Source of the DNA: Pontederia crassipes
Lineage: Eukaryota > Streptophyta > Magnoliopsida > Commelinales > Pontederiaceae
Assembly (NCBI GenBank): GCA_030549335.1
Contig: JAUKPH010000017.1
Location: forward strand, 1,616,501 to 1,680,500
Direction: 5' to 3'
DNA: 64,000 nt
Below, in pieces: positions 9,000 through 60,330 of this stretch (its first letter is position 1; the number at the start of each line of letters is the position of its first letter). The notes under the pieces were generated by a model. It was not told the DNA's origin and searched no databases. It saw only the letters and a list, made by a program, of their open reading frames with translations. Made by a program: the position numbers and the translations under genes.

Positions 9000-10716
9000 T
9001 TAAGGATTCATTTTTTGTTGGGCCGGCGGTGCGGTTGCCACCAAGGCCCGCCGTCTCTCCATGTTGTCGCGCCATCCTGCATTCAATCGTCAAGTTTTTT
9101 TTTTCTTAAAATAAATTGATTCGTGGTATTAAACATGATTTATTATTATTTACCTTTTTGTAATGTAATATTTCATTCACGATATTAATGTAGGCAAGAA
9201 AATGTTTTCAAGCATTTTTTTCGATTATTATAATAGGATCCATAGGGGTGTAAGACAAATTCCATCAACCTCCAAAAAAATTGAAAATGTAAAAATTTGA
9301 AGTCCGAATATGATTTAGGACTAAAATTAAAGCCCACTGGAATCTATCTTGTTATTTATATAATTAATTCATCACTCATCAATTTTTATTATAAATATAT
9401 TATATTTTTATATAATTTCATATTTTTATGTCACATTATGGAACTCTAATATGATGATTTTAGAAATTTAAAAGTATGTTTTATATTTAGTTCTAAATTT
9501 AAATGTATTATATTTAATTTAATTTATAATACATATTTTTAAATCTAATTACACAAAAGTATGATTCCAAAAATAATTTAGGACAGTTTTAATTTTAAAA
9601 ATTTACTCAAGAATAACGAATAATTTGTTTAGATCGATAAAACGGGTCGGACTTAAACTATTTTCTGCCTTAGGATCCAATCAAAATTCAAAATCGCATT
9701 TAATAATTATGAGTGAGAAATTTAACGACGATATTTTTTAGCGTAGAAATGTTTTTAATATTCCGGTACCGATGGTCATGTCGAAATCACGGCGCCGCAG
9801 CTCGCGGTACATCTGGCAGAGGGAGCAGCACCCGCACCAGCAGTGGACGCAGCAGTCGGCGCAGGGCTCCTCGCGCAGCCCGTAGAGCTGCCGCAGCTTG
9901 TAGCGGTAGACGCACGAGTAGAGCGGCAGCAGGAACCCCGTCGCGCACATGAGCGTGTACAGCACCGCGCTTGCGCTGCTCGCTGCATCCCATCCCATCC
10001 CATGTCCAACAATAACAGATGTTAATAACTCAATATTTTTTCCATAATGGAGAAGTAACATGAGACAGGGCGGTAATGACAATTAATTGGATTCACAATT
10101 AAAGCAGCTTTTGCCAAAATAAATATTGCTTACAATGAAACCATGCATGCTCAGATGAATTTATTTTCACCGCCTTAATTATCTTTAGTTTATATTCATA
10201 TATACCTTCACTCGATGGAGATCTACTTATATAATATATTGATTGACATGATTAATTTATGGAATAAAACATTTCTAAATATTGTCAATCTCTTCTATAA
10301 GCATAAAAAAAATTAGGTCTCCAAAAAATAATGAGATTTAGTGATCAAGAGTGTAGATAAATAAGAGTGAAACTGTTAAGGATCGAATAGAGTTACAGAT
10401 GGATCCTTGGTCTACGATCTCGGCGATCCGACCGAAGGTGACGCAGGGGCAGAAGCATGTGATGCAGCCTGCATGCATCAACAACATGCAAATATATATA
10501 TCAAGCATTCGTTAACTTCAATGATAGATAACTGCGAAGAAATGACGAGCTTTATATATGAAGAAATATGAAAAAGTGAGCATGCAGTAAGTACGCACAC
10601 TCCTCATTGCCGCAGTCGCAGTCGTAGAGCCCGGTCGACCATGGGCGCCTTTGCGCCGGCTGGTCATGGAACGCCGCCACCGCCGACGGTAGTGGCTGGT
10701 ACACCGGCGGATGCAT
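9000..10716 (-). CDS. PLAC8 / cell number regulator-like protein, copy 1 (159 aa)
   Basis: Four exons: 10716-10599, 10468-10397, 9982-9770 and 9076-9000. All introns are GT-AG and the phases join without a break, giving 159 aa. The start was chosen at the MHPPVY methionine, 96 bp below a TATA box. The PLAC8 signature CCxxxxCPC is residues 40-48 (CCITCFCPC), followed by [13 protein letters not shown], a hydrophobic stretch at about 75-93 ([16 protein letters not shown]) and the cysteine-rich CADCCVHCW block, then [18 protein letters not shown]. Family members are small plasma-membrane proteins linked to organ size (CNR) or cadmium/zinc/calcium transport (PCR); which applies here cannot be told. 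The exons are GC-rich, unlike the introns. A same-strand paralogue begins its last exon 10 kb away. Confidence 0.9.
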
Positions 10717-12606: not shown

Positions 12607-15600
12607 GTCCCTCCTCCTTCAAGAAAGCTCGGCCCCGAGCTAGTATTCGTATCAAGGAGAGGTAAGCGAAGAGATCAGCCACATTGAATGTTGCAGAAAT
12701 GCCAAATCCAGAGGGCAAGTCAACGACATAAGCATTGTCATTAATCTTGCGAAGGATACGACAAGAACCATATTTCTTGTTGCGTAACTTATGATAAGTA
12801 CCAGCCGGGAACCATTCTTTTCTAAGAAAAACAAGGACAAGATCGCCTTCTTCAAAAGTCTTCAACCGACGATGTTGATCAGCTTTAGTTTTGTAGTCGG
12901 CATTAGCAGCCTCAAGCTGCAGCCTAGTAGCTGCATGTATGTCTCTAATATTGGAGACAAGTTGGTCAATATTATCGAGTTGTGAAGCAGCAGGAGAGGA
13001 AGAAGTAATATCAACCACTTGGTGTGGGAGAACACCATAAATGATCTCAAACGGTGCACGCCCAGTAGATATGTTCTTCATGCAGTTGTAGGCAAATTCA
13101 GCTTGAGAGAGTGCAACATCCCATTGTTTAGGGCGATCTCCACATAAGGCTCAAATGACATTTTCCAATGATCGATTGACAACCTCTATGTGGCCGTCTG
13201 TTTGAGGGTGACAAGTCGTACTAAACTTCGAATTTAAACCACAACTATCGCCAAAAATGAGATAAGAACTTGGTGTCTCGATCAGAAATAATAGATTTTG
13301 GCACGTCATGGAGACGAACCACCTCTTTGAAGAATAAGGAGGCAATTTGACTGGCATCCGATGTTCATCTACAAGGGACAAAATGTGTCATTTTGGAGAA
13401 GCGATCAAGAACAACAAAAACAGCATCCACCCCTCGTTGAGTGAGAGGAAGCCCCAAAATGAAATCCATCGATAAGTCCTCTCACGGAACATGAGGAACG
13501 GGTAGAGGCAAATACAAGCCAGTGTTTTGGGATTGCCCCTTAGAAACTTGGCAGACTAGACACCTTTGGACAAAGCGCTCAACATCGCGCTTCAATTGCA
13601 GCTAATAGTAGCGCTTCTCAACTTCGGCGATGGTCTTGTCTCGACCAAAATGACCGCTAAGGCCATTACCATGCAGGTCACGAATCAATTTTTCCCGCAA
13701 GGAAGACCTAGGGATGCAAAGTTGGTTAGCACGAAAAAGAAATCCATCATTAATATGCATACCATTGGAAGGAAGGTGAAGAAGACAACGCTCCCAAGCA
13801 TCTTTGAAATCCTTATCTGTTTTGTAAAAGTCTTTGAGGCCTTCAAAACTCACGACCACTGCGCGTACAATTGCTAACACCTCTGCTCGGCGGTTCAATG
13901 CATCAGCAACATGATTGGAGTAACCCGATTTGTGTTTTATGACATAATTGAAATGTTGCAGAAAAGTAATCCAGCGGCCATGCATTCTGTTGATGTTTGT
14001 TTGGTGCTGAAGATGCTTGAGGGACTCGTGATTAGTAAACAGCACAAATTCGCGTTGAATGAGATAGTGCTCCTAATGCTTTAACGCCTGAACAACAACA
14101 TAGAATTCCAACTCATAAGTGGTCCATTTTTGCCGATCATCACTGAGCTTCTCACTATGGAAAGCAACGGGACGTCCATTTTGAGACAGGACAGCACCAA
14201 TCCCAATCACAAAGGCATCACATTCAACGATGAAAACTCTTAAAATCAGGGAGGGCCAAAACAGGAGCCGAAGTAAGCTTTTGTTTAATTTCAGCAAAGC
14301 TATTGTCAACAGAAGCACCCCAATTAAACTGACCCTTCCGCAAGCAAGCAGTAATAGAAGCCATAATGCTACTGAAGTTGCGGATGAAGCGACGATAGAA
14401 TGTAGCTAAACCATGGAAGCTACGAACTTCTCCAACAATTTTGGGTGTCGGCCAAGAGATGATGGCTTGGATCTTAGTAGAATCTACTGAGATTCCCTCG
14501 GCCCCAATGACGTAGCCCAAAAATAAAAGTCGATCGCTAGCAAAGGTGCATTTTTTCATGTTAATGAAAAGCTTATGAGACCTTAGTGTAGTCAATACCT
14601 CTTCTAGATGCATGAGATGATCATTTTTGCAGCGGCTATAGATGAGGATATCGTCTAAATAAACGACGATGAAACGCCCGATGAAAGGTTTTAACACGTG
14701 TCATAAGACGCATGAAGGTGCTTGGTGCATTGGATAAACCGAATGGCATGACCATCCATTCATAAAGGCCTTCTTTGGTTTTGAATGTTGTCTTCCACTC
14801 ATCTCCTTCGGCAATTCGGATTTGATGATAACCACTCCTCAAGTCAAGTTTGGAGAAGATAGTTGAGCCACTCAGCATGTCGAGCATGTCATCAAGTCGT
14901 GGGATGATAGTAATTTTGTTAATTGCACGGCTATAAATGCACATGCGTCAAGTGCCATCTTTTTTTTTGTACGAGCAACGCAGGTACAGCACATGGGCTT
15001 AGACTCTCGCGGATGTGACATTTGTGCAGTAATTCTTCAACTTGTTATTGCAAGATTTGATGCTCTCGAGGACTCATTCGATAATGAGGAAGGTTGAGCA
15101 GGCTAGCTCCAGGAACAAGGTCAATCTTGTGTTGAATATCATGTGAAGGTGGAAGCCCCGGGGGAAGATCATCAGGAGAAAGATCATTGAACTTATGCAA
15201 CAATTCCTGCACAAAGATATTACCAAAGGAGACTGGATCATGGATAAAATCTTTGACAACTAGTGCACAGAACAAGCCTGAGGATTTGACTGCACTATGA
15301 AGTTCGCATTCATTGGTGATTAGAAAAGAAGCTTTGGTTGAAGATTCGTCGCCTTAGGGTTGTCATTGTCTAGCGGCATCAAACGGATGCGATGGCCATC
15401 TTTGTTGAAGACATAGATGTTGTCACGGCAGAAATGTTTCACATCAGCATCATATTGCCATGGTCTTCCCAAGATAACGTGACATGCATTCATGTCCACG
15501 ACATCACATATGACTTCATCTTTGTATCGCTTGCCAATAGAGAAAGGTACCTTGCACCTAAGTGAAACCTTTACTTCAAAGCCCTTGCGAATCCATCCTA

Positions 15601-19579: not shown

Positions 19580-19896
19580 AACTTCGTCTATGTTTTATAG
19601 CTGATTCCAAGTCCGGATAAAGAAAGAGGATTGTGTTAGGCCCCGACAGCCAGCGTAAAATCCTATCGAATCGCATGAACATGGATCAACGAATATAGTA
19701 AGAAGAGTAGATCAAATAATCTGGAGTCCGATTAAAAGAGGGAGAGGGAGGCCAAGGCGGACACTTGGCGAACTAATAGAGCAAGATCTATTGGTGAATA
19801 ATATACCGAAAGGTTTGGTTATTAATAGAGCGGAATGACGTCGTATGATCCATGTAGCCGACCCCACCTAGTGGGATAAGACTTTGTTGTTGTTGT
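19580..19896 (+). mobile_element. Short RTE-LINE-derived element, head plus long tail
   Basis: The head reads TATGTTTTATAGCTGATTCC through GATCAACGAATAT (about 19588-19696). It is joined directly to the 3' end of an RTE-type LINE, starting at TAAGAAGAGTAGATC and ending GTGGGATAAGACTTTGTTGTTG. The same head and tail occur at 46785, 51406 and 57192. It landed in or next to a TA microsatellite, which hides any target duplication. Confidence 0.8.
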
Positions 19897-20169: not shown

Positions 20170-23100
20170 TTAACGATTCATGTCTTGGTAGACCGGTGGT
20201 GCTGTCGCCATCTGCTTCTGCTTGTCCATGTTGGCGTGCCATCCTGCAATTAATCGTCAAGCTTAATTAATGGGCCATCCCTTTGCCTCATATAAGAAAT
20301 TAAAACTTATAAGCACAATGACTTTGCTCTCAAGATATGTATGGCTGTATTTTTGTCTTCGTCAAGACCCAGTCAGCACTATTAATTGATAGAGTTTGGC
20401 CAATTTACATTAAGATAAAATACGATCGATCGAATTGATCGTTCTAGGAAACGATTATTGGGTTTCTGAACCTTTCAACTAGGGAGCCTATCGATTAAAA
20501 CTTGGTTCATGAATCATAACTTTAGCCAAATTAGTAAGCATACTACATCTTGTAATACGATTGAATGATCATTTAGAAATTAAGAATTACTATTTTAATA
20601 CAATGTAAGCAAACCTTTGAATGATTTAGCTCTTATATATATGTGTTACATCTTAACAACTAATTAACGCTCCAAGATCCAAATGTGTTTTATCCTCCTA
20701 ATTGCATATAGATAGATAAGTATGCAGTACATACCGATGGTCATGTCGAAGCCACGGCGCTTGAGTTCCCGGTACATCTGGCAGAGGGAGCAGCACTCGC
20801 ACCAGCAGTGGACGCAGCAGTCGGCGCAGGGCTCCTCGCGCAGCGCGTACTGCTGCCGCAGCTTGTAGCGGTAGAAGCACGAGTAGAGCGGCAGGAACCC
20901 CGTCACGCCCACGAGCGCGTAGACAGCTGCGCTCGCGCAGCATGCTGCATGCATGCACCCACAGGCCACGAGAACACCACCATCACGAACGGCAACATAT
21001 ATTAATCGATCATATATATATCATCTTCATAATAACATTAATGAAGCAAGAAGAAGATGTTTCAGGGAGGGAGGATCGAGTTACAGGTGGATCCTCTGTC
21101 GACGATCTCGGCGATCTGGCCGAAGGTGATGCAGGGACAGAAGCAAGTGAGGCAGCCTGCAGCAGATATGTATACGTGCGTTGCATGCGAGCATGCAAGC
21201 AGCAGAGTGTTGGTTTAGAATGGTGGAGTGGAGCGACGACCGCGAAGAAATTAATGACGAGTTGTAAGTTAGACGATTAATTAGTTGCAGTGTATACGCA
21301 CGTTCTGTTAGAGCTGGTGAATACTTCATAGCCCCTTGTTTCTCACACCGGGTTCGTCCACGTGAGCTTAGGGGAATCTGAGTATTACCCAATTAACAGT
21401 ATTGTTAGCGTACGAACGAAAGGGAGGGTTCGGGGGGCCCCGCCCCCCGACGGCGGTCCCTCTCGCCGGTGAGCGGGCGGGGGTTCGAGGGCAGCGCCCC
21501 CGAAACCTAGACGGGTTTTGGGCTTTTGTTTAGCCGGTCCGTGTGGTTCGGATTATGTTTTTTTTTCTCTGTTTGTTTGGGTTTTAAACCCGGTTTGGAG
21601 AGGCTATTAATAGCCTAATTTCTGATGTAATTTTGTGTGGCGGCTGTAAACCTAAACGATATAGTGAAACCTCTTTGCAGGACGTAGCCCTCATCTCAAG
21701 GGTGAACCTGGGTAATTTCGTGTGTCTCCTCTATTTTTCTGCAATCTCTCTGCGATCTTCTCTCCTTGTTCTCGGATTTTTTCCATCAATTGGTATCAGA
21801 GCCAGGTTGTTCGAGGAATTAGGGTTTATTCGAGATGTCAGGAGGATCGCGGATTGAGATAGAAAAATTTGATGGAACGCGATTTGATCTCTGGAAGATG
21901 AAGATGGAGGATCTTCTCTGTGATCGAGATCTTTGGACGGCAATCGAGAAGGAGATACCAGGCATGGAGGCGGCGAAGGTCGCGGACGAGGCCTCCTCCA
22001 GTCAGGCAGATCCAAAGGCGATCGAAGAGTGGGATCGGATTGATAGAAAGGCGAAGGGTTTGATTCGGCTGTGTCTCACGGATTCAATTCTTACGAATGT
22101 GATGGGCGAACCTACTGCCAGAGATCTGTGGAGGAAGTTGAAATCCCTATATCAAAGTAAGTCGTTGGTTAACAAGTTATTTCTGAGGAAGAAATTGTAC
22201 AATCTTCGGATGCAGGAGGGTGATTCATTTTCTACTCATCTTTATAACTTTAACACGGTGATCAGTCAACTTGTATCAATCGGTGTTAAGTTTCAAGATG
22301 ATGATAAGGCAATAACATTGCTCTGTTCACTGCCGGATTCATGGGACAATCTAATTGTTGTGATTGGTGGCGGGGATAAAGAACTTTCGTATGAAAGTGT
22401 ATGTGCTGCCTTGTTATCAGAGGAAATACGAAGAAAGGGATCAGCAAGTTCTGGTAAAGAGGCGCTGGCGGCCAGAGGAAGGCAACCAGAAAGAAATTAA
22501 AATCAGAGAGGGAGATCCAAATCCCGTGGGCGTCGAAGAGTAAGGATAAGAAGGTGCAATGCTGGAGATGTCAAGAGTGGGGCCATCTGAAGCGAGATTA
22601 CAAAAACAAGCCGGTTCATAAGAAAGAAGCTGAGTCAACCTCGGATAAAAAGGAGGCTGAGGCAGGAGATATGTATGTGGCTTCTGCATGTACGGCACAG
22701 TCAGATAAAGATGTCTGGCTTATCGACACTGGTGCTTCGTACCACATGACGCCTCATAAACACTGGTTCTGTGAATATGAGGAGTATAATGGTGGAGATG
22801 TCATGCTCGGAGATGATACTGCGGTTCAGATTGTTGGACGTGGCAGGGTGAAGTTGAGGATGAATGATGGCACGGTGAAGACTCTACCAGATGTGATGCA
22901 TATACCACTTATGAGCAGGAGTTTATTATCTGTTGGTACAATGTCTGACTCGGGTGTTATATTCAGTTGCGATAAGGATTCGTGCAAGATGATCAGAGGG
23001 TCGATTGTAATTGCACGAGGGGTTCGCTATGGCACGTTGTACAAGTTGCTCGGAGAGACAATATCTGTGGGCTGCGGATTTATTTCTGAAGAGGCCAAAA

Positions 23101-26100
23101 AAGATGAAGACACCAAATCTATGTTGTGGCATCGGAGATTAGGCCATATCAGTGAAAAAGGACTCTCCACTATAGCATCAAGTCAGATGGTAGAAGGAGT
23201 TCCGGATTGTTCTGTGGGCTTCGGGTTCTGTGAATATTGCCTCCATGGAAAACAGAACCGAGTCAGTTTTCAACAGACAGGTTCAAGAGCAACGAAGATT
23301 CTCGAACTGATTCATAGTGATGTCTTTGGACCAACTCCGACTCCATTTATTGGAGGGTCCAGGTACTATGTTTCTTTTATAGATGATTTTTCGAGATACA
23401 GTTGGATTTATTTTATCAAGAATAAATCAGATGTATTCGATAAGTTTCGAGAATTTAAAGTTTTGGTGGAAAATCAATTGACTGCGATCAAGGTCCTTCG
23501 TACAGATAATGGAGGTGAATTTTGTTCAGATAAGTTTGAGCATTTCTGCGTGGACAATGGTATTGCTAGGCAGAAGACAACTCCATATACACCTGAGCAG
23601 AATGGAGTAGCTGAAAGGTTAAATCGGTCACTCATAGAGAAGGCCAGATGTATGCTGAGTTGGGCTGAATTGGGGCAAGAATTCTGGGCAGAAGCTGTAG
23701 CCACAGCAAACTACCTGAAGAACCGCTCACCGACCTCATCAGTGAAGGATCAGACACCTTATGAGGCAATGTTTGGGAAGAAGTCAAATTTGTCTCATGT
23801 TCGGGTGTTTGGATGTGACGCATATGTTCATATACCCAAGGAAAAGCGGGGTAAGCTTGATAGTAAATCTGAAAAGAACATATTTGTCGGATACAAGGAA
23901 GGGATCAAGGGCTACAAACTGTGGAATCCAAAGTCAAGGACTATTGTTTACAGCAGGGATGTTGTTTTCCGTGAATCACGTTCCCAAGTTGAAGTTCAAA
24001 AAGGTGATGAACCTAAGAAAGTGGTAGTGCTTGAAGAAGATTCTGATTCTGAAACTTCAGAGGTGGATGCACAAGATACTTCAGTTGAGTCTGTTATAGA
24101 ACCGGATCAAGAGGACTCGGTTAATGAAGTTGAAGATGCAGATTCAGATGAAGACCCAGATATTGGTACTACCATACCAGTTCTCAGGAGATCGACACGA
24201 GAAAAAAGAGCACCTTTGAGATACTCTCTTAGTGCTCTGAGTTCGTTTCATGCTTTGAGCATCATCGGAGAAGAACCTAGTTCTGTAAAAGATGCAAGGT
24301 CTATGGATGATGCAAATCAGTGGGAGCTTGCTATGACAGATGAGATGCAGTCACTGGATAAGAATGAAACATGGAGTTTGTGTAAATTGCCTAAGGATAG
24401 AAAGGCAATTGGTTGCAAATGGGTGTTCAAGCGAAAGCTGAAACCGGATGGGACTGTAGAGAAGTACAAGGCGAGGCTGGTAGCTAAAGGGTACTCTCAG
24501 GTTGAGGGAGTCGACTATGATGAGATTTTTTCTCCCGTGGCGAAAATGACTTCAATCAGATTTGTTCTATCTCTGGCAGCAACATATAATCTTGAAGTAG
24601 AGCAGATGGATGTGAAGACGGCATTCCTTCATGGGGACTTGGAGGAAGAGATATATATGAGGCAACCAGAAGGCTTTGAAGTTCAAGGTAAAGAAAAGCT
24701 GGTGTGCAAATTGAAGAAGTCTTTGTATGGATTGAAGCAGTCGCCAAGGATGTGGTACCAGAAGTTTGATACGTACATGCTCGAACTCAAGTTTGTACGT
24801 TCAGATTCAGATCATTGTGTCTATATGAAGAGAGTTGGAGATCAGTTTGTCATTCTTACATTGTATGTGGATGACATGTTGCTGATTGGAAACAGTATGA
24901 AGATGGTGAATTCAGTGAAGGGTTTGTTGGCCAAGAAGTTTGAGATGAAAGACTTAGGGCCAGCGAATTTTATTTTGGGTATGCAGATTAGAAGGGATCG
25001 TCAGAAGCGAAAGTTGTGGCTAGGACAGGAGAAGTACATAAAAGAAGTGTTGAAGAAATTTAACATGTCGGACTGCAAGCTAGTGGGTACTCCTATGTCT
25101 CTAGGAACCAAACTTTCTGCAGAGCAATGCCCGAAGACGGATGAAGAAGCTGAAGAGATGGATCGTGTGCCATATACAAGTGCAGTGGGCAGCTTGATGT
25201 ATGTCATGGTGTGCACGCGTCCAGATATAGCCCAAGCAGTGGGAGTCTTGAGTCGATATATGTCTAACCCAGGCAGGGAACATTGGAATGCTATCAAGAG
25301 AGTTTTCAGGTACCTTCGTGGAACTTCAAATTTTTCGTTGTGTTTTGAAGGTACAAGGAAAGGAAAGATGCTTCATATTGTGGGCCATGTAGATGCTGAT
25401 TGGGGTGGAGACATTGATGGTAGACGATCCACTAGCGGATATATTTTTACATTATTTGGGGCTGCACTAAGTTGGATGAGCAAGAGACAAAGCGTGGTAG
25501 CACTTTCTTCTACAGAAGCAGAATATATGGCTCTTACTCATGCTGCAAAAGAGGCCATATGGCTACGACGGTTGTGCTTAGAGCTCGGATTTGAGCAAGG
25601 TGCTATAGAGGTGAGATGTGATAATCAAGGTGCTATTCAGTTGGCTAAGAATCCCGCATTTCACTCACGCACAAAGCATATTGACATCCAATACCACTTT
25701 ATTCGGGAAAAGGTGGAAAAGAAAGAGGTTCAGCTTGAAAAGGTTGATACAACAGAGAATAGTTCTGATTTTCTGACTAAAGCAGTTACAGGTGTAAAGT
25801 TTGAGTGGTGCTCTACTGCTATCGGATTGAAGAAGAATGTTGCTGGCAAGGCTCTCATTGGTGTGAAGTATCCACCAAGTGGGAGAATGTTAGAGTTGGT
25901 GAATACTTCAGAGCCCCTTGTTTCTCACACCGGGTTCGCCCACGTGAGCTTAGGGGAATCTGAGTATTACCCAATTAACAGTATTGTTGGCGTACGAACG
26001 AAAGGGGGGGTTCGGGGGGCCCCGCCCCCCGACGGCGGTCCCGCTCGCCGGTGAGCGGGCGGGGGTTCGAGGGCAGCGCCCCCGAAACCTAGACGGGTTT

Positions 26101-26481
26101 TGGGCTTTTGTTTAGCCGGCCCGTGTGGTTCGGATTAGGTTTTTTTTCTCTGTTTGTTTGGGTTTTAAACCCGGTTTGGAGAGGCTATTAATAGCCTAAT
26201 TTCTGATGTAATTTTGTGTGGCGGCTGTAAACCTAAACGATATAGTGGAACCTCTTTGCAGGACGTAGCCCTCATCTCAAGGGTGAACCTGGGTAATTTC
26301 GTGTGTCTCCTCTATTTTTCTGCAATCTCTCTGCGATCTTCTCTCCTTGTTCTCGGATTTTCCCATCACATTCGTCGTCGGCGTCGCAGTTGTAGAGTCC
26401 GGTCAACCACGGGCCTTGCGGCACCTGCCCCTGGAGGGGGAACGGCGGCGGAGGTGGCTGATTCGCCGGAAACCCCGTCAT
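20170..26481 (-). CDS. PLAC8 / cell number regulator-like gene, copy 2, split by a retrotransposon
   Basis: Exons: 26481(or 26570)-26370, 21156-21085, 20944-20735 and 20243-20170. Splice sites, phases and exon lengths match copy 1 (72-bp exon 2; 210 against 213 bp in exon 3). Motifs are [22 protein letters not shown], a hydrophobic segment, CADCCVHCW, and FDMTIGWHANM. A Ty1/copia element of 5063 bp lies in what is now intron 1, antisense to the gene. Exon 1 has two possible starts. A family-typical MYP start at 26570 is out of frame with the rest, because two [10 protein letters not shown] repeats lie 47 bp apart. The methionine of the second repeat (26481) is in frame and would give 155 aa. 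Whether the gene is expressed depends on the altered donor and this start. Confidence 0.8.
21306..21788 (+). repeat. 5' LTR of the copia element (483 bp)
   Basis: TG...CA ends, paired with 25888-26368 at about 98% identity. It contains a GC-rich segment (about 21420-21510) and is followed two bases on by the primer-binding site. Confidence 0.95.
21835..22500 (+). CDS. gag ORF of the copia element
   Basis: About 221 residues of the UBN2/gag type: [18 protein letters not shown] near the start and a SLPDSWDNL block further on, as in Tnt1-like gag. It begins 32 bp after the primer-binding site. Confidence 0.85.
   Translation: MSGGSRIEIEKFDGTRFDLWKMKMEDLLCDRDLWTAIEKEIPGMEAAKVADEASSSQADPKAIEEWDRIDRKAKGLIRLCLTDSILTNVMGEPTARDLWRKLKSLYQSKSLVNKLFLRKKLYNLRMQEGDSFSTHLYNFNTVISQLVSIGVKFQDDDKAITLLCSLPDSWDNLIVVIGGGDKELSYESVCAALLSEEIRRKGSASSGKEALAARGRQPERN
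22554..26054 (+). CDS. pol ORF of the copia element
   Basis: A 1166-codon ORF with protease, GAG_pre-integrase and integrase core, copia reverse transcriptase and RNase H. The recognisable protein ends around 25.87 kb, and the final part of the ORF is only read-through into the 3' LTR. Confidence 0.9.
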   Translation: MQCWRCQEWGHLKRDYKNKPVHKKEAESTSDKKEAEAGDMYVASACTAQSDKDVWLIDTGASYHMTPHKHWFCEYEEYNGGDVMLGDDTAVQIVGRGRVKLRMNDGTVKTLPDVMHIPLMSRSLLSVGTMSDSGVIFSCDKDSCKMIRGSIVIARGVRYGTLYKLLGETISVGCGFISEEAKKDEDTKSMLWHRRLGHISEKGLSTIASSQMVEGVPDCSVGFGFCEYCLHGKQNRVSFQQTGSRATKILELIHSDVFGPTPTPFIGGSRYYVSFIDDFSRYSWIYFIKNKSDVFDKFREFKVLVENQLTAIKVLRTDNGGEFCSDKFEHFCVDNGIARQKTTPYTPEQNGVAERLNRSLIEKARCMLSWAELGQEFWAEAVATANYLKNRSPTSSVKDQTPYEAMFGKKSNLSHVRVFGCDAYVHIPKEKRGKLDSKSEKNIFVGYKEGIKGYKLWNPKSRTIVYSRDVVFRESRSQVEVQKGDEPKKVVVLEEDSDSETSEVDAQDTSVESVIEPDQEDSVNEVEDADSDEDPDIGTTIPVLRRSTREKRAPLRYSLSALSSFHALSIIGEEPSSVKDARSMDDANQWELAMTDEMQSLDKNETWSLCKLPKDRKAIGCKWVFKRKLKPDGTVEKYKARLVAKGYSQVEGVDYDEIFSPVAKMTSIRFVLSLAATYNLEVEQMDVKTAFLHGDLEEEIYMRQPEGFEVQGKEKLVCKLKKSLYGLKQSPRMWYQKFDTYMLELKFVRSDSDHCVYMKRVGDQFVILTLYVDDMLLIGNSMKMVNSVKGLLAKKFEMKDLGPANFILGMQIRRDRQKRKLWLGQEKYIKEVLKKFNMSDCKLVGTPMSLGTKLSAEQCPKTDEEAEEMDRVPYTSAVGSLMYVMVCTRPDIAQAVGVLSRYMSNPGREHWNAIKRVFRYLRGTSNFSLCFEGTRKGKMLHIVGHVDADWGGDIDGRRSTSGYIFTLFGAALSWMSKRQSVVALSSTEAEYMALTHAAKEAIWLRRLCLELGFEQGAIEVRCDNQGAIQLAKNPAFHSRTKHIDIQYHFIREKVEKKEVQLEKVDTTENSSDFLTKAVTGVKFEWCSTAIGLKKNVAGKALIGVKYPPSGRMLELVNTSEPLVSHTGFAHVSLGESEYYPINSIVGVRTKGGVRGAPPPDGGPARR
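25888..26368 (+). repeat. 3' LTR of the copia element (481 bp)
   Basis: Its last bases directly abut the exon 1 end of PLAC8 copy 2; the inner TG/CA terminus supplies part of that gene's present splice donor. Confidence 0.95.
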
Positions 26482-26775
26482 CGGCACGCCGAGGGCGACG
26501 GCGGTTGGTTCGCCGGAAACCCGGTCATCGGCTGCGCATGGATAGCTTCCGTCGTGGGTCGTGGATACATGACCGCCGACGGACACGCAGAGAGAGAAAT
26601 TGAGCTGAGGATATGTATGAGAACTGAGAAGAGGAGAGAGAGAGAGATTGGGGAACAATGGAGGATTGTCTTTAAGTCTACTTGTAAGTGTGAGTGGCTC
26701 AGGAGGGTGCTGAGTTCATCAATAATTGCAAAGTATGTCTACATTATTTTTTTTCCAGCTAGTAATCTCACACAA

Positions 26776-27528
<753 letters not shown>

Positions 27529-46382: not shown

Positions 46383-46784
46383 AATCTGTTATCCCACTTC
46401 TCACACACGAGGATTTAGCTTGATGCCTATATTAGTCGTAATCATACTCTATTTTATTTCATTATATTGACTATTACTATTATTTTTATTTTTGTTCTTT
46501 TTATATATTCTAACTGAAACTAAGAGATTGAGGAAGTTAAAGTAGAGAGCTTAGTAGAATCACTACAGCAAAATATTTTAAGAGATTCTGTTTCTCCTGC
46601 TTGCATTGCATCAAAGGTATATTTTCATCTGATCACATAAACTTCGCCTTTGGAAAATGAAATTTTTTATTTCTAAAGGTGAAGTTGCAAGCCTGGATGT
46701 TTTATTTCTAAACTTTTGGAAGTCGCTTTTGGAAAATGAAACTTCGCATCTGTTTCTCATGAATGCCAAATTTTTTATTTTTAA
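46383..46784. other. Intergenic, AT-rich
   Basis: Downstream of the TGA gene. Contains a degenerate repeat of a block with CTTTTGGAAAATGAAA and AACTTCGC at about 46640-46760. No gene recognised. Confidence 0.55.
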
Positions 46785-46981
46785 ATTTCGCCTATGTTTT
46801 ATAGTCGGTCTCAAGCTCGGATAAAAGAAGAGGATTGTATTAGGTCTCGACAGTTAACGTAAAATTCTGTCGAATCTCATGAACATGGATCAACGAATAT
46901 ATTGTGTTAATGAACGGAATGACATCGTATGATTCATGTAGCCGATCTTATTTAGTGGGATAAGATTTTATTATTGTTGTT
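46785..46981 (+). mobile_element. Short RTE-derived element, older copy
   Basis: A diverged copy of the head (CGCCTATGTTTTATAGTCGG to GATCAACGAATAT) is joined to the last ~70 bp of the LINE tail (AACGGAATGACATCG...TAGTGGGATAAGA), ending TTATTATTGTTGTT. About 15% of positions differ from the 51406 copy. No clear target duplication remains. Confidence 0.8.
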
Positions 46982-49100
46982 AGATATTTTAATTAAATAA
47001 TAAAATTTTAGTTGCAAGGCCCCTTTCTTGAATCAATTGAGCTTAAGTTGGTTTTATTATAAATTTCACCTGATCGACAGTTGAGAAGGAACTCCACTCA
47101 GTATAAGTTGTAGGAATTAAGAATTGTGTGAATTCACGATAATTCTAAATTCATTATAAGTCTACACAATATTACAATACTTTAAATCCCAAGTTTTGTA
47201 ATTTTCAAGAGGACAGAAGAATGATAAATACTCAATGGGCAATGTAAATTGTTGGCTTTGGAGAGAATAATATAGCGTAACTAATTCATATTAATTATTA
47301 CTTAATGGTTATTAATAAATAATTAAGCGATAAAGGTAAAAAAAAAAGGAAGCACGTATGATGTTTTTGGGTGAGCCGGGCGAGCATTTCGATCGGTGGA
47401 TGGATTAGTAGTTCGGTTAGTTGGATGCTTGGAGTAGACGTGTTGGTCAACGTATTATTTTTGCCGTTCTAGTTTTGAACACCGGATTAATGAGGTGCTA
47501 ATATATAAGTATTGAAAAAAAAAAATCTAAAAGTCGGATTAGAAATTAGACTCACCTTTGACTTGAGTTAGGATTTGATTTGTTTCTAATTGAGTCGATC
47601 AATTAGCTTAACATAATATTTACTTTCCGAAATATATTATCGATATACCAATTTAATATATATATTTAATAAACAAATAAATAATATAAAAAACATAATT
47701 ATATTCTCTTATCCTTCATTCTATATATTTCCTATCTATTGTCCTCTTAAAATATTTTATTTTATTTTATTTTATTTTTCATTTCTTCATCTTAAACCTA
47801 TCTCTTTAATTTTACCATTGATCGTTTTTCCTCCTTTTGTCTCCGTTATAATATTTCTTATTCCATTTTCAAATGTACCATTTTATCTTCTTTCACTTGG
47901 AAAGTTAAAAAAAAAGTGGATTGAGCCCACTATTTTTAAAATTTTGCTAGGCGTTTTTACTGGTTTTATTTTTTTTAATATTGAAAAATGATTGCTTCAG
48001 CCATTCATTTCATGGTTGCTCAGTCGGTCCGAACTGATTTTAACAAATTTATTAATATTTCCCCCCAAATGGGACCTGTTCTGTAGTCTATTTTTAACAA
48101 GTTTTCAGAATATTTCAAGGTTGTGCTAGGAGAATAAGAGGAAATGAAAATAATAAAATAATCCTTTTTAATGGATTATCTTCCCTTGTAACTCGTACGT
48201 GTATACTTTTCTATATTACCAACGATCAGTACACTCGTAGATTAGGAGACTCGAATTTAATGTGTTAATGTTAAAGGCGAAATATTTGTTTATTTTTGTT
48301 TTATATTTTATATTGGATATTGAATAATATGATCACTACAATAAAATTCTTTGGCTTAATTTGTTATATGATGACTGCGATCCACTAGACCGAGAAGCAA
48401 AAATAAGGAGGGGCCAAGTTTCCCAAGACCTCTCAATCAAGTGAAAAGGTTTGCAAGCACTGGACCAATAGAGATTTCATGTCAAAGAGCTTAGTAAACA
48501 AATTTGAGGGGGAGCCAAATTGATTTATAACTCTAAAAATTACATATAAATATATGTAATTAATTAAAATTTTAAAAATTAAGAGGGCCAGGACCCCTCA
48601 ATCTATATGTGGGTCCGCCCCTGTTCGTACGTATCATCTCAAATCTTCAAATTTTTCGTGATCAATCTCCCCTTTATAATAAAACACGACCGCGAATTAA
48701 ACGCTTAATTTGTTATATGATGATTGCGATCCACTAATTCATACGTACCATCTTAAATCTCCAAACTTTCCTTGATCAATCTCCCCTTGATATAAAATAC
48801 GATCGCGAATTATCTTCTAATTAATTAAAAAAAGCTCAACCTCAAGCGTGTGATAATATATTTTTTTAAAAAATAATTTATCATGAACGAGAGTTGGGAT
48901 AGAGTAGATAATAACTTCTTACCGTTTAAACAAAAATCATGAGTTAAAATTTTTATGAATGTAAAAAATTTTCACTAAAAATTTTATCCATCATAATTAA
49001 ATGTATTGTCCAGGATGATATCAAATTAGTTGCTTTTTAGTTACAAACTTATCCATTTATTTGCTTTTTAGTTACAATGTCTCCACTTAATTGTGCGAGG
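46982..49100. other. Intergenic, with a duplicated block at 48357-48812
   Basis: AT-rich, no gene recognised. A block starting TTGTTATATGATGA, reading GATCCACTA, then TACGTAYCATCT and CTCCCCTT, occurs twice in tandem (48357-48702 and 48707-48812). The first copy carries an extra ~236 bp (about 48388-48623) that is absent from the second. Confidence 0.65.
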
Positions 49101-49337: not shown

Positions 49338-52300
49338 ATGTGTGGAATCCTTGCCGTTTTGGGCTGCGCCGACTCCTCCCTCGCCAAGCGATCTCGCATC
49401 ATAGAACTATCTCGGAGGTACCCATCTTTTTTTCTTCCTGGCTTCCTGTGTCCCTTTTGACGGTTTGGTGAATTTTGTTTGTCGCGTTTTCTTTTGCCTA
49501 TGAATCATTTGTGGTTCTTTCAAAAAAAAAAAAACCTGGATGTAAGAGAACAAAAAGTGCGTTCTTTTGAGGGCCGTTTGCGCAACAGGAATGTTGAAAA
49601 GCGTGCATTCATTCAACAAAATGCGTGTGTACACTGAGGGAAGGAAAAGAGAGTGGTGTCTGGCCTAAAGTTCTGACTTTTTTTAACTGGTTAGGATGCA
49701 TTTGGCCATTTTGTGTTTTGATGGTTGAAGTTGCTTTATTCAGTGTCCTAATAGATAGAGATGTCTGACTAATACTGACTGGCAATTGTGTTTTTGTGTA
49801 TTTTTTCCTCTTAAATTTCTTATGATAATACCTTAAGATACCTTCAAAATCTCAACTTTTTTGCTTTAGGAAAATAAAAAATGTGTTCTTTAGATAGCCG
49901 GAGATGGTTGGGATCTCAAATACGTTGAGTGCTTCAATTAGCAATGCATGTTTGGTAGTGGATATTTCTTCATAGTGCACGGTCCTGTCACGCCAGAACA
50001 TGTTGTTTTAGTTTATGAAGACATCACATAACTTAGTTAAGTGATTTTCTTTAATTAGTCATACGTTCTGTATGTATATACTGCCATCTAATAAGTGGAA
50101 AAGTTTTGACTCCTTATACATAACTTTTTTGTTTTGCAACTGAACTGTATAAATCCACTTATCAAATTAATGGCTGAGTTGTCCACTTATTTTGGATTAG
50201 TTCTGTGACAACTGACTCTATTCAACTTCAAAATGACTTGTATCCTTACTAGTTGATCTACAGATGCACCCAACTGAAATTAATTTTCTAAGTGAACTTT
50301 GTGAGAATCTGCATTATGTCAAATTGTTTATAAAGTACAGTGGCTATTAAGAAATCTCGTTACACTTAACAATAATATTTTAGCAATTTTGGAGTTAAAT
50401 TCAATTATTCGATATTTAATGGAAAACTGTAATTTAAATCTTTATGATTAGGAAATATAATTGCGGAAGCTTTTTCCATATAGTGAGATATTGCACTTTC
50501 AGATTTTTCTTTTTGAAGCATGTGCAGAATGGCTTGACTGAAATGAGTTGCTCCCTATGTTCACTGGAGATAAACAATATTGTCTTATACAAAAATACTA
50601 TTGTAAGGAAATAAAATAATAGTGATGTTGTGTAATTCCAAAGTATTTCTATCATTAATATATCTATATGAAAGCCAAGAGTATATATCCAATGAATTGA
50701 TAATTGTAACCTGAAATCATAAATATTAACTCTTATTTTTTGCTCTCTCATTCATTATTTTCTTTATTCAGTATACATTTTTCCAGTAATATTTGGTGTA
50801 CATTTGTTACATCATTTAATTTCTGCAGGTATGCTACATAAAGTTGATGATAATTAATGTGAATATGGCAAGTTGACGATAATTAATGTGAATATGGCAT
50901 ACGACAAACATGCGTCATTGAAATGGAATTTTCCACATATTTGAATTTTCTTGGTTTGAGCATCTAGTATGTTATTAAAAGAAAACCACTCTTGCTAAAC
51001 TATGATAATGGCTTGAAACTTGAACAATTCAATTTCGATGGCAACCGAATGGGTAGTCATCCTTTCTTCTCTCAAAAAAAAAAAAAACTTGAACAATTCA
51101 ACTTGCACCTCTGATGAGATTGATTACCTATAAAAGACTTGGTTGATCTACAGTTTTTCCTCAACTTTTTGTAACTATGCTGCTTTCTAGTTTTCAACTT
51201 ACAGCATGATTTATCTGATAAGTTCTAATGCCTTAAAATTCTACAAAATTTTACAAGTCCGTCTGAAACTAAGCTTGTGTGGCAATAGATAGTGTGGTAA
51301 ATCTAGACTCATTATCAAAGCCAAAGAAGGATTCCATTATTTACAAGGTGTAAACATGTATATATAAAGTTCTATTTCTTTGTAAGGCAGCTATTATTAC
51401 AAAGTAACTCCGCCTATGTTTTATAGCCGGTCTCAAGCCCGGATAAAGGAGGAGGGTTGTGTTAGGCCCCGACAGCCAGCGTAAAACCCTGTCGAATCGC
51501 ATGAATATGGATCAACGAATAGAATGGCGTCGTATGATCCATGTAGCCGACCCCACCTAGTGGGATAAGGCTTTGTTGTTGTTGTTGTTGTTGCAGCTAT
51601 TATTACAAAGTCACGGCCCTTGCATTTTCTTCTAAATGCGGCGATCTTAAATTTTATATATTTTGGGTCTGAATACCTTGTTTGCTTGTGCTTTTGTCCT
51701 TTCTTTTGAGGAAACAGATTGAGGCACAGGGGCCCTGATTGGAGTGGCTTGCATTGTTACCAGGACTGTTATCTTGCTCATCAAAGGTTGGCCATTGTAG
51801 ACCCTACCTCTGGAGATCAACCACTCTATAACGAAGACAAATCCATTGTTGTCACGGTTTGGGCTATTTCCATCCTCTTTCTAGGAATTGTAGTGTCTTA
51901 ATACTCCCACATTCTAGCAACAGTTTTATAGGATCCTTCTGTGAAAGCCAAACTTCAAACTTTACTTTTTCCTTTTGGCTGATGATCACATCTTTACATG
52001 CATTTTGGCATATAAGATAAGACTAGTATCTTTATGACATATCTTTTATAGCCTATTAAAGGTTATCACCATAAAGAGTTTTTTATTCTCATTTGTAGGT
52101 GTGTTCATAACTTGTTATTTTTTTCATTTTTATGGAGGAAAAGATCATTCGAGGTTATTATCATCTATATTATTATCCTCAAGTGTGAAGATAGTGCAAG
52201 GAATATTGACATACACCCTCAAGTATGACTTATGGCATACACTTCCAATCATTAAGTCCGAGATCTAGTAATGTACAATATTTAACCTTTCCTTTTTTTG

Positions 52301-55300: not shown

Positions 55301-58300
55301 TCCTTTCTGGGGAAGGTTCTGATGAAATCTTTGGAGGGTATCTGTATTTCCATAAAGCACCAAACAAGGAAGAGTTCCATCAGGAAACATGCCGAAAGGT
55401 ATCTATAGTTGAAATGCTTATTTTCCCTATTACACAATGGAATACAGCACTGTCTTAAATAAACTAAAAATTGTTCCCCTAAAAACTAAACTAAGAATTG
55501 AGAAATTTGATACTTCGGGATTCTAAAACAATACTAATTGTGCCATATGATTCATACTTTGAACAACAACTTTATCACAAAGTGATATAACTGAAAATAC
55601 AACCACAAATATGACTGAAAATAAAAGTAGGATAACTATTATTAGCAGTCAAAATGCAAGAATCTTAAACACAATTACTACTAATATCTTATCAATTCGA
55701 GATAACTAACCCACTAACTAATATGAAGTGGTGGTATTTTATCTTTACACCCTTACTAAACTTTCACCTTGTCCTCAAGGCGGAGAAAAGAAAATTAGTA
55801 GTAATATTCTGCGGGTGCAGTTGAAGCCTCCAAACTTGATTAACTCTATCTTTGGGCCAAGAGAGAAATTTTTGAACCAATATAAACTTCAGCTTTTTTT
55901 CTTATGAAATGAGCTTTCCCTTGTAATGTGTAAAGCTGATTTCTTATGAATGAGTGCTGCTTCTTTGTGCTTTGCTAGCAGGTTTTTTGAGGTTCTGATA
56001 CCAATTGATACAACAACAAAGCCTTATCCCACTAGGTGGGGTCGGCTACATGGATCATACGACGTCATTCCGCTCTATTAGTAACCAAACCTTTCGGTAT
56101 ATTATTCACCAATAAATCTTGCTCTATTAGTTCGCCAAGTGTCCGCCTTGGCCTCCCACTCCCTCTTTTAATCGGACTCCAGATTATTTGATCTACTCTT
56201 CTTACTGGCGCATCTAATGGTCTTCTCTGAACATGACCAAACCGTCTCAAACAATTCTCTACCATTTTCTCACTAATAGGAGCCACTCCGACTCGTTCAC
56301 GTATATGGTCATTTTTAATCTTATCTAATCTTGTATGACCACACATCCATCTCAACATCCTCATTTCGGCTACCCTCACTTTACGTTCATGTTGTCCCTT
56401 CATAGCCCAACATTCACTACCATATAACACTGCTGGTCTTATAGCAGTACGATAGAATTTTTCTTTAACTTTATTGGGTACTTTTCTATCACAAACAACT
56501 CCAGTGGCTTTCCTCCACTTACACCAACCAGCTTGAATTCTATGATTACCATCGTCATCAATCTCACCATTTTGTCTTACAATTGATCCTAAATATTTAA
56601 ACTTTGTCACTTGAGGAATTATATCCTCCCCTAGCCTAACTTTCAAATCGTCTCTAAGTTGTTTATTTGTGAAATTGCTATGCATATATTCTGTTTTATT
56701 CCTACTTAAACGAAAACCCTTTGACTCCAACGTATTTCTTCATATTTCCAATTTTGTATTAATCTCTTCTCTTGAATTCGCTAAAAGTACTATATCATCC
56801 GCAAATAGCATGCACTTAGGTACCTCCTCTGTGATATTCTCGGTTATAGCATCGATAACTAAATTAAATAGATACGGGCTTAAAGCTGATCCTTGATGTA
56901 GGCCAATTCCTATAGGAAATTCATTTGTTTCACCTCCGAGTGTCCTAACCCTAGTCAATGCCCCATCGTACATATCTTGTATTACCTTAATGTAGGCAAC
57001 ACTCACCCTCTTCTTTTGCAAGGTTTTCCAAAGTACATCCCTTGGTACCCGATCATACGCCTTCTCTAAGTCAATGAAAGCCATATGTAAGTCTCTTCAA
57101 TGATACCAATTGAAAATAAAACTACAAATATGACTGAAAATAAAAGTAGGGTAACTATTATTAGTAGTAAAAATGCAAGAATCTTAAACACACAACAACA
57201 ACAATAACAAAGCCTTATCCCACTCGGTGGGGTCGGCTATATGGATCATACGACGCCATTCCGCTCTATTAGTAATATATTCGTTGATCCATGTTCATGA
57301 GATTCGACAGGGTTTTACGCTGGCTGTCGGGGCCTAACACAACCCTCCTCCTTTATCCGGGCTTGGAGTGGACCAAACTCCAATTACATTTTTTTTTTGA
57401 GAAGTCCAATTACATAATTGATCCACACATTTTCCAAAGGCTACCCTAAATGTAAAGCCCATGCATGTAATTATAACATGCAGTTATGGTTACAATAACT
57501 ATAACTAACTACAAATAAACTACCCACTACTTTTTTAACTAACTAATACAAAATGGTGGTATCTTATCACAAAGTCTATAACATTCTTCCATCATTTCAT
57601 CGATCCTGTAAATTTTCATCAGGTCAGCTACTGCACCTTTGACTTTTTGTTCACTTGTATAGTTTTTTTATGGATGACTAGACTTGCTACTTGCTAGCTA
57701 TCCTTTTGCTCTTCAAGAAAAAAAGAAAAAAATTTTGTAAGTCATCTTTTTCTGTGTCAGTTTATACTTAATGTCTTTAAGTTTGCTGTCCTTAATGTTT
57801 GTCTCATGTTTTTTTGCTGTCCGCTTCTAATGTTTCCCTTCCACTAATGAGAGCCTTTTTTAATACTTTTGAAATTTAGATCAAAGCTCTTCATTTGTAC
57901 GACTGCCTGAGGGCTAATAAAGCAACATCAGCTTGGGGTGTGGAAGCTCGAGTACCATTTTTGGATAAAAGTTTTATTAACATAGCCATGGACATCGATC
58001 CCGACTGGAAAATGGTAAGTTTGTTCTGTTAACATGCAACCTTTCATGTAGTACTCTCTTGTTACAACATATAGCAAATCTGGAATATGTATCAGTGAAA
58101 CATGAGTTTCTCAATTTGATTTCTAATCACATCGTACAATTTTAAATATATTCTTGTTTGGCAGTAGCACCTAAATCAACATGTAAATCAAAATCTTTAA
58201 GTGTTTACAACAACAACAACAACAACAAATCCTTATCCCACTAGGTGGGGTCGGCTACATGGATCATACGACGCCATTCCGCTTTATTAGTAACCAAACC

Positions 58301-60330
58301 TTTCGGTATATTATTCACCAATAGATCTTGCTCTATTAGTTCGCCAAGTGTCCGCCTTGGCCTCCCTCTCTCTTTTTTAATCGGATTCCAGATTATTTGA
58401 TCTACTCTTCTTACTGGCGCATCTAATGGTCTTCTGAACATGACCAAATCATCTCAAACGATTCTCTACCATTTTCTCACTAATATGAGCCACTCCGACT
58501 CGTTCACGTATATGATCATTCCTAATCTTATCTAATCTTGTATGACCACACATCCATCTCAACATCCTCATTTCGGCTACCCCCACTTTACGTTCATGTT
58601 GTCCCTTCATAGCCCAACATTCACTATCATATAACACTGCCGGTCTTATAGCAGTACGATAGAATTTTTTTTTAACTTTATTAGGTATTTTTCTATCACA
58701 AAGAACTCCAGTGGCTTTCCTCCACTTACACCAACCAGCTTGAATTCTATGATTAACATCGTCATCAATCTCCCCATCTTGTCTTACAATTGATCATAAA
58801 TATTTAAACTTTGTCACTTGAGGAATTATATCCTCCCCTAACCTAACTTTCAAATCGTCTCTAAGTTGTTTATTTGTGAAATTGCTATGCATATATTCTG
58901 TTTTATTCCAAATCTTTAAGTGTTTAACAATACAAAATTGGGTATTTCTTCAGCTTTCACAGATAACCGAGTCTTCACTGTGTTGGCTTAAGTGTTTAAC
59001 TATTAACCTAGAGAATGAAAATTACATTCGAAGAGATGACACTAATTTTACGCTGTCACATTCTAAAACCGTGCTTGTTTTGTTGACTTGGGAACTTTTC
59101 TTTTGATGAGGTTGTTGACATTAAGAAATTAATGTGATTTCCTTTTATCAGTGAAAATTTAATGTGTTATCTGAACATCATATTTCTTGTGTTCGCAGAT
59201 TAGACCCGATCTTGGTCGAATCGAAAAGTGGGTTCTAAGAAATGCATTTGATGACAGTAAGAATCCTTATCTGCCAAAGGTATGAGATATTCTGTCATTT
59301 GTTTTCTTTAGCTTAAAGTTGCGCTGAAACTTATTTTCTTATCAGCGACAGAACTTCACATCAAATGCTGATTATGGATGTTTATTCTTCTTTTTAGCAT
59401 ATCCTTTATCGGCAGAAGGAGCAATTTAGTGACGGTGTGGGATACAGCTGGATTGATGGGTTGAAGGATCATGCTAATGAAAATGTACATATATGATAAA
59501 TATAATGTTCTCAGTTCCTACTCATCTTAAGTCTTAACCTATTGTTTTCTTGATATTTAATATTATCTTTTATTCGCTTTGTTTATATTGATGACTTAAT
59601 GATTGTGCTTCCGGATGGCCAGGTCTCAGACTCTATGTTAGCAAATGCAAGCTTTGTTTATCCAGAAAATACTCCCACAACTAAGGAAGCATATTATTAT
59701 CGCACAATATTCGAGAGATTCTTTCCTAAGGTACATAATATATATTTTCCCTAAAAAAAGGTCAGATGTGATTCAGGAAAGAATAATTAGCAGATGAGTG
59801 ATTTGTGAAATTTCTCCACTGATTCATGGCATTTCTCAGCAAATTTATTGTTTCCATTAGTTAGCTGCCTCAGATCAATGTGATTGGTTCAATGTCTCTC
59901 TTGTTAGATCAGGGAGAGCAGACTCTGTTTCTTGGGTTATGCACGCAGATTTTGCTATTGAGTTAAATTTTCTACCAACACCCTCTCAGAAAAAAAATCT
60001 TCTAACAACATTGTATGCGACATTTTTCAAGGCAAGCTCATTGCAAGAACTTCAGCTAATTCAGGGCATTTCTTTCAACAGAATGCTGCTAGGTCGACTG
60101 TACCTGGAGGGCCAAGTGTGGCATGTAGCACCGCGAAGGCTGTAGAATGGGATGCAGCCTGGTCCAAGAATCCTGATCCATCCGGTCGCGCGGCGCTTGG
60201 AATTCATTCTGCTGCTTATGAGGAGACACCAGAAACCGTGACTGCTGTAGAAAACTCTACTCCCACAACTGGCTTTCCGCAGAAACTACATGAAGGCGTT
60301 ATGGAGACGACTGTTTCCTCTGCTGTTTGA
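49338..60330 (+). CDS. Asparagine synthetase, glutamine-hydrolysing (590 aa)
   Basis: It makes Asn and Glu from Asp, Gln and ATP in the cytosol. Fourteen GT-AG exons join in phase: 49338-49417, 51718-51856, 52860-52955, 53201-53342, 53441-53536, 53883-53977, 54306-54467, 55018-55098, 55177-55398, 57880-58014, 59199-59279, 59398-59484, 59623-59730 and 60082-60330. The start is certain: [10 protein letters not shown] puts the catalytic Cys at residue 2 of the glutaminase domain. Also seen are LRHRGPD, NGEIYNH (75-81), the ATP-pyrophosphatase loop SGGLDSS (233-239), SGEGSDE (341-347), [11 protein letters not shown], and [14 protein letters not shown] near the C-terminus. Length is normal for plant ASN and no break was found. 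Introns 1, 9 and 10 (2.3, 2.5 and 1.2 kb) are enlarged by non-LTR insertions. A candidate AATAAA lies at 60361. Confidence 0.97.
51406..51592 (+). mobile_element. Short RTE-derived (SINE-like) element, 187 bp, 19-bp TSD
   Basis: It lies in intron 1 of asparagine synthetase. A perfect 19-bp target duplication GCAGCTATTATTACAAAGT flanks it (51387-51405 and 51593-51611). The head (CGCCTATGTTTTATAGCCGG to GATCAACGAATA) is joined to GAATGGCGTCGTATGATCC, the end of the RTE LINE, and closes with (TTG)n. It has no coding capacity and must have been moved by an RTE enzyme. Confidence 0.93.
56009..57100 (-). mobile_element. RTE-type LINE, 5'-truncated, 1092 bp
   Basis: It lies in intron 9, antisense to the host gene, flanked by the 13-bp duplication TGATACCAATTGA (55996-56008 and 57101-57113). 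Minus-strand reverse transcriptase blocks are [33 protein letters not shown] and FADDIVLLA (57084-56740), then the C-terminal part [28 protein letters not shown] and [16 protein letters not shown] (56730-56065). The two parts are in different frames, so one frameshift lies near 56735. It ends with (TTG)n on its own strand. RTE assignment rests on these motifs and the trinucleotide tail. Confidence 0.93.
57192..57366 (-). mobile_element. Short RTE-derived element, head truncated
   Basis: On the minus strand: CCAAGCCCGGATAAAGGAGG to GATCAACGAATAT, then ATTACTAATAGAGCGGAATG through the LINE 3' end, closing with (TTG)n. The extreme 5' part of the head is missing. It is inserted in the LTR-like block of intron 9. 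Confidence 0.85.
58208..58909 (-). mobile_element. RTE-type LINE 3' fragment, 702 bp
   Basis: It lies in intron 10, antisense to the host gene, flanked by a 17-bp duplication AAATCTTTAAGTGTTTA (58191-58207 and 58910-58926). It covers the same 3' part of the reverse transcriptase ORF as 56009-57100 ([44 protein letters not shown]) at about 95% identity, with separate small lesions breaking the frame near 58448 and 58640. 5'-truncation and the (TTG)n tail fit target-primed integration. Confidence 0.93.

Follow-up and report, generated by a model that had tools for sequence, protein, structure and literature searches.

A copia-type long terminal repeat (LTR) retrotransposon lies exactly on the 5' splice site (donor) of intron 1 in the second of two PLAC8 genes on a 64,000-nucleotide stretch of Pontederia crassipes DNA (the window; assembly GCA_030549335.1, contig JAUKPH010000017.1, positions 1,616,501 to 1,680,500 of the forward strand). 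The element integrated antisense to this gene, PLAC8 copy 2, between intron bases +1 and +2, long after the two gene copies had diverged. The 5-bp target duplication preserved exon 1 together with the +1 G, and the next bases came from the TG of the element end, so that the intron still starts with GTG, with positions +4 to +6 replaced. Some transcripts would most likely still be spliced from 26370 to 21156, which would preserve the original protein junction. This joining would be less efficient than before, owing to competing donors in the LTR, above all the in-frame donor at 26289, and to early termination in the 5-kb intron. A probability of about 0.6 was assigned to this explanation as a whole. 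Judged from the sequence, insertion of a copia element in the PLAC8 intron 1 donor is nearly certain, and the predicted splicing outcome (partial, less efficient joining of 26370 to 21156) is held at slightly under even odds.

The element occupies 21306-26368 on the plus strand, and the gene is read from the minus strand. The exon-side copy of the target duplication (26369-26373) reads CATTC on the plus strand and GAATG on the minus strand, that is, the last exon 1 bases GAAT followed by the intron +1 G. The intron-side copy (21301-21305) reads CGTTC, or GAACG on the minus strand, and leads into TGCGTAT, the remainder of the displaced old donor. The exon-side junction is GACGAC-GAATG-TGATGGG and the intron-side junction is CTAACA-GAACG-TGCGTATAC, both read on the gene strand. 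The two copies are identical at four of five positions, in keeping with the 5-bp duplication of Ty1/copia elements if the odd base is ascribed to a change on the intron side. Because the T is present in the exon flank and in copy 1, and completes a Cys codon with exon 2, CGTTC is most likely the changed copy. A match of at least 4/5 has a random probability of about 0.016 by simple arithmetic, and the LTR ends together with homology on both sides leave little doubt about the insertion despite the imperfect target copies.

When the flanks were joined over one target copy, their alignment to copy 1 ran through the junction without a break, its gaps falling in exon 1 (3 nt) and within the intron (three gaps), and alignment of the two first introns alone gave a score of 37, versus a maximum of 32 in 500 shuffles. 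With a bar marking the exon/intron border, the inferred empty site is GAAT|GTGCGTAT, the present site is GAAT|GTGATGGG, and the uninterrupted site of copy 1, where intron 1 measures 130 nt, is GAGT|GTGCGTAC (GAGGAGT|GTGCGTAC with more flank). On this comparison, GAAT|GTGCGTAT is the most likely ancestral donor. In copy 2, intron 1 measured 145 nt (21301-21157) before the insertion and now measures 5213 nt. A preliminary description of the locus had located both target copies across the exon/intron boundary, and its coordinates were exact. The old donor that it gave, T|GTGCGTA, agrees with the joined flanks and with copy 1. Its derivation of the present donor, T|GTGATG, with the G from the target duplication, the TG from the LTR end and the +5 G lost, was reproduced when the junction was read base for base, as was the intron growth of about 5 kb.

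The element has a 5' LTR of 483 bp (21306-21788) and a 3' LTR of 481 bp (25888-26368), whose outer end gives the TG of the present minus-strand donor GTG. Both LTRs share the ends TGTTA...CATCA, which conform to the TG...CA termini of Ty1/copia. Behind the 5' LTR stands ATTGGTATCAGAGCCAGG, presumably a tRNA-Met-type primer site, and before the 3' LTR stands AAGTGGGAGAA, which is taken here to be the purine tract. A gag open reading frame (ORF) at 21835-22500, with its stop at 22498, matched Retrotran_gag_2 (PF14223, E 1.4e-41), and a pol ORF at 22554-26054 contains the integrase core and reverse transcriptase, both on the plus strand. The Pfam order (Retrotran_gag_2, gag_pre-integrs, rve (PF00665), RVT_2 (PF07727)) is that of copia elements, with integrase before reverse transcriptase (RVT_2) and a copia-type gag. 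The earlier assignment to copia is thus upheld by the LTR pair, its ends and the domain order. A working copy would have a single continuous gag-pol frame, whereas here gag and pol are read in two different frames, so this copy is not intact; the interruption concerns activity, not family membership. No second copy was found when 19-29 kb was compared with the 64-kb window by blastn, and Rfam and tRNA scans of the window returned no matches.

Alignment of the LTRs gave 471 matches, 10 substitutions over 481 sites (7 transitions and 3 transversions) and 2 gap columns. The Kimura two-parameter (K2P) divergence is 0.021, matching the earlier figure of about 2%. This corresponds to about 0.8 million years at 1.3e-8, or 1.5 million years at 7e-9, substitutions per site per year, an estimate that carries a large sampling error by itself, as it rests on just 10 changes. 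Comparison of 0.021 with the synonymous divergence (dS) of 0.34 between the PLAC8 copies places the insertion well after these diverged. Nine of the 10 LTR differences have A or T in the 5' LTR versus G or C in the 3' LTR, six of these nine being transitions, and the tenth runs the opposite way; the bias may reflect decay of a methylated 5' LTR.

The four-exon structure of both PLAC8 genes was deduced from reading frame, splice signals and the resemblance between the two copies. Copy 1, the paralogue with the uninterrupted site, lies at 9000-10716 on the minus strand (exons 10716-10599, 10468-10397, 9982-9770 and 9076-9000). In copy 2, also on the minus strand, exon 1 (26370-26481) was counted from ATG 26481, the sole ATG in the frame of the PLAC8 domain within the open frame 26658-26272, and is followed by exon 2 (21085-21156), exon 3 (20735-20944) and exon 4 with the stop codon (20170-20243). 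With these borders, both copies have an open PLAC8 frame and phase-1 splicing that forms Cys from T|GC (in copy 2 from ATG 26481), in agreement with the exon 1 end at 26370 and exon 2 start at 21156 proposed before. Both copies matched the full profile of the PLAC8 domain (PF04749), at E 9.5e-29 in copy 1 and at 3.9e-30 in copy 2 (1-101 of 101, its exons joined by inference). From 26481 through exon 4, the exons of copy 2 are free of stops, and its inferred splice borders are intact. Over 128 codons, dS between the copies is 0.34 and the nonsynonymous divergence (dN) is 0.15; the pairwise dN/dS of 0.44 blends both lineages and mostly predates the insertion.

One feature of copy 2 on which the preliminary description did not remark concerns its start codon. 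The context GTCATG is common to the start of copy 1 and to ATG 26570 of copy 2. The frame from 26570 hits a stop at 26480 and is not the domain frame, leaving a short ORF (26478-26570, minus strand) whose stop (26480-26478) overlaps ATG 26481 as ATGA. Exon 1 taken from the upstream start (26570-26370) contains a near-repeat that encodes 11 residues twice. Its spacing of 47 bp is no multiple of three, so the copy-1-like start is out of frame. Copy 2 may rely on the second start at 26481 or be impaired however it is spliced; alternatively, the altered frame may reflect an assembly error. A run of 41 trinucleotide units (ATT/AAT) occupies 26777-26899, about 200-330 bp upstream of start codon 26570.

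Retention of the GT was examined with a script that placed the insertion at offsets -4 to +6 around the donor. The GT was kept in all six insertions after intron bases +1 to +6 and lost in all five at 0 to -4. A TG...CA element starts with TG on either strand, and therefore GTG is always regained when it inserts directly behind +1. Retention is automatic for such an element at or after intron base +1 and involves no special repair. The donor had earlier been called rebuilt, which holds insofar as the GT was re-formed by the TG end, but implies something special where any of the six offsets would have kept it. The present event is the most upstream insertion that still keeps the GT at this site, and selection may have favoured such survivors.

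The present donor, AAT|GTGATG (26364-26372, minus strand), was scored with an approximate plant donor matrix and by U1 pairing energy, and the robustness of donor rankings was assessed with 5000 perturbed matrices. The matrix score falls from 0.9 for the empty site to -1.61 now, a loss of 2.5 bits, and the empty-site donor was superior in 90% of the perturbed matrices. U1 pairing weakens from -3.0 to -2.1 kcal/mol, a loss of 0.9 kcal/mol. Donors have been divided into two classes, AG|GU and |GURAG, in which a strong side compensates for a weak one (Parker et al., PMC9803359). With neither a -1 G nor a +5 G and with +4 to +6 replaced, the present donor belongs to neither class; strictly, neither did the old donor, yet it had the +5 G.

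Several observations weigh against the proposed explanation. Two of the five other inferred donors of both copies score below the present one (-3.4 and -2.41), and the intron 2 donors of both copies, with a U1 pairing of just -1.3 kcal/mol, are likewise devoid of the -1 G and +5 G. These other donors being weak too, it is uncertain whether much splicing is lost. The matrix behind the scores is itself approximate, the out-of-frame copy-1-like start leaves it possible that no functional protein is made whatever the splicing, and RNA spliced around the copia-like element Evelknievel in Arabidopsis is low-level and mostly frame-shifted (58% + 17% of clones; PMC6238269). The suggestion that the changed donor may splice poorly is accordingly plausible from the fall in score and U1 pairing, but tempered by the comparably weak native donors. 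A strong splice defect is not claimed, as the matrix and U1 pairing disagree on the size of the effect and two native donors rank below the present one.

The present donor was outscored by 8 of the 31 GT sites (itself included) between 26600 and 25888, and by 50 of 216 between 26600 and 21160. Seven of those eight in exon 1 and the 3' LTR lead to early stops (26425, where the frame is broken, 26252, 26171, 25971, 25944, 25931 and 25929), and 26289 alone keeps the frame. Donors deeper in the element include higher scorers, the best at 24178; these were listed, with translation limited to exon 1 and the 3' LTR. The enlarged intron contains 7 AATAAA motifs on the gene strand versus 0 in the old intron, a figure given without a chance control. 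Neither donor 26289 nor the candidate acceptor at the far end of the element, described below, figured in the preliminary description.

The alternatives to the proposed explanation are not all mutually exclusive with it. The strongest is that copy 2 is dying or dead, its transcripts ending early or using early-stop donors such as 25931, and its out-of-frame start making splicing irrelevant. This was considered a substantial possibility, less probable than partial splicing at the re-formed donor. It is favoured by the start in copy 1 context at 26570 running to the stop at 26480, by the top-scoring donor of exon 1 and the 3' LTR (the predicted CCG|GTGTGA after 25931; 25925-25933, minus strand, score 2.52) leading to an early stop, by the AATAAA motifs, and perhaps by RPP7, whose transcripts can terminate at the LTR of an intronic copia element (PMC7529245). 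The stop-free exons with their inferred borders kept and the dN/dS of 0.44, for what a mixed and mostly pre-insertion value is worth, argue the other way; moreover, ATG 26481, which overlaps the stop, could be used, and a sequencing error could account for the change of frame. Splicing might instead have shifted to the predicted competing donor CAG|GTTCAC in the 3' LTR (after 26289; 26283-26291, minus strand), lengthening exon 1 by 81 nt and inserting, in frame, 27 residues immediately ahead of the CLTCFCPC motif. Such a shift appears unlikely. Donor 26289 is the sole GT that reading through from the present donor meets before a stop (26274-26272), falls in the AG|GU class, pairs with U1 at -5.9 versus -2.1 kcal/mol, scores 0.51 versus -1.61, and would yield a product of 182 residues, open to the end. 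Its lead is moderate, as it was ahead in 65% of the 5000 perturbed matrices and failed to win in 35%; its bases +3 to +6 (TCAC) are poor, and a kept frame is expected one time in three by chance. Both donors might also serve side by side, so that in place of one donor there would be two, both keeping the frame and separated by 81 nt, the re-formed donor giving the old protein and the LTR donor adding 27 LTR-coded residues before CLTCFCPC. From the sequence this is less probable still than a shift to 26289.

Removal in two steps was considered as well. In a first splice between GTG (26369) and the acceptor AACAG (21305), the element would be excised as a separate intron, after which the displaced donor AAC|GTGCGT would be used, leaving AAC as a 3-nt microexon. 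The predicted sites lie at 21302-21309 on the minus strand: the candidate acceptor AACAG (21309-21305) comprises the LTR end and the first G of the target copy, the element-end CA and target G forming AG, and is followed by AAC (21304-21302) and the old donor 3 nt further on. In one splice form of Evelknievel in CMT1 (25% of clones), the acceptor combines an A of the LTR with a G of the target duplication (PMC6238269), and [D1,2] stwintrons likewise split a donor between bases 1 and 2 (PMC12403724). Against this, the microexon would create an in-frame stop at codon 38, no good pyrimidine tract was seen before the acceptor, as judged by eye, and a one-step route works without a microexon; the two-step route is therefore very improbable. 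Least credible of all is an assembly chimera without a real insertion, given the complete LTR pair with matching TG...CA ends, the 5-bp target copies, and flanks that are both homologous to one contiguous site of copy 1.

Other repeats were observed in the window. Between the PLAC8 copies, broken retrotransposon pieces, presumably gypsy-type, lie at 13602-14944 on the minus strand, with RVT_1/Integrase_H2C2 matches in three of four ORFs tested. A dispersed repeat at 19580-19896, just downstream of copy 2, has pieces of 80-98% identity elsewhere in the window (46783-47004, 51406-51585, 56010-56206, 57198-57367 and 58216-58415). One of these overlaps the end of ORF 56065-56730, which is taken to resemble the end of a long interspersed nuclear element (LINE)-type reverse transcriptase.

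The closest precedent is Evelknievel, which lies in exon 13 of Arabidopsis CMT1 in the orientation opposite to the gene and is excised by means of splice sites at the LTR and target-duplication ends; its spliced RNA restores the frame in 25% of spliced clones and not in 75% (PMC6238269). Both elements are copia-like and antisense, with a 5-base target duplication and a donor at the outer LTR end or in the target duplication, and one Evelknievel form has an LTR A plus target G acceptor like the candidate AACAG. Evelknievel, in an exon, makes a new intron, whereas here an existing donor was struck and an existing intron enlarged; its splice forms are known from RNA, whereas PLAC8 copy 2 is known from sequence. 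In soybean, RAC, an antisense copia element of 4.77 kb, is found in intron 1 of the rhg1-a alpha-SNAP gene near exon 1, and cDNAs without RAC indicate apparently effective splicing-out (PMC6712407). RAC resembles the PLAC8 element in being antisense in intron 1 close to exon 1, but it lies inside the intron at a distance from the donor and retains an intact ORF. Both Evelknievel and RAC, documented at the RNA level, count as precedents for the proposed splicing. The intron 1 element of Arabidopsis RPP7, COPIA-R7, shares the risk of transcripts terminating in the element; there, termination occurs at the 5' LTR under EDM2/H3K9me2 control (PMC7529245), whereas the PLAC8 element is described here at the DNA level.

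Introners can also draw splice sites from target duplications (PMC9860276) and resemble the present case in a splice site that is part target duplication and part element. Those of that article are short, multi-copy, mostly DNA-transposon-like and make new introns, in contrast to one LTR element in an old intron here, and the text searched contains no word beginning with 'LTR'. The element was not classed as an introner, since the corresponding position of copy 1 also carries an intron. In the [D1,2] stwintrons of fungi, an insert splits the donor between its first and second bases, as in copy 2; no target duplication was found there, and the inner intron must be removed first (PMC12403724). 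That category was likewise rejected, as here the exon is followed at once by a re-formed GT and a single step could be enough. A long-read study in Arabidopsis found that transposable element sequence provides splice donors and acceptors, with copia slightly over-represented (PMC10241880), and a tomato case (PMC10970333) is a different situation. Among the titles and abstract openings listed in searches of the open-licence literature, none described an LTR element re-forming an existing donor through its TG end.

The locus is a tidy, well-preserved new example of a phenomenon close to cases measured in Arabidopsis and soybean. It illustrates a simple rule, namely that an LTR element with TG...CA ends preserves the GT whenever it enters after intron base +1 or further in. 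The uninterrupted paralogue elsewhere in the window also makes the locus a natural test of the extent to which a plant 5' splice site tolerates change beyond +3 and still works. If the reading with two frame-keeping donors were true, a young copia LTR would be on trial as a coding exon.

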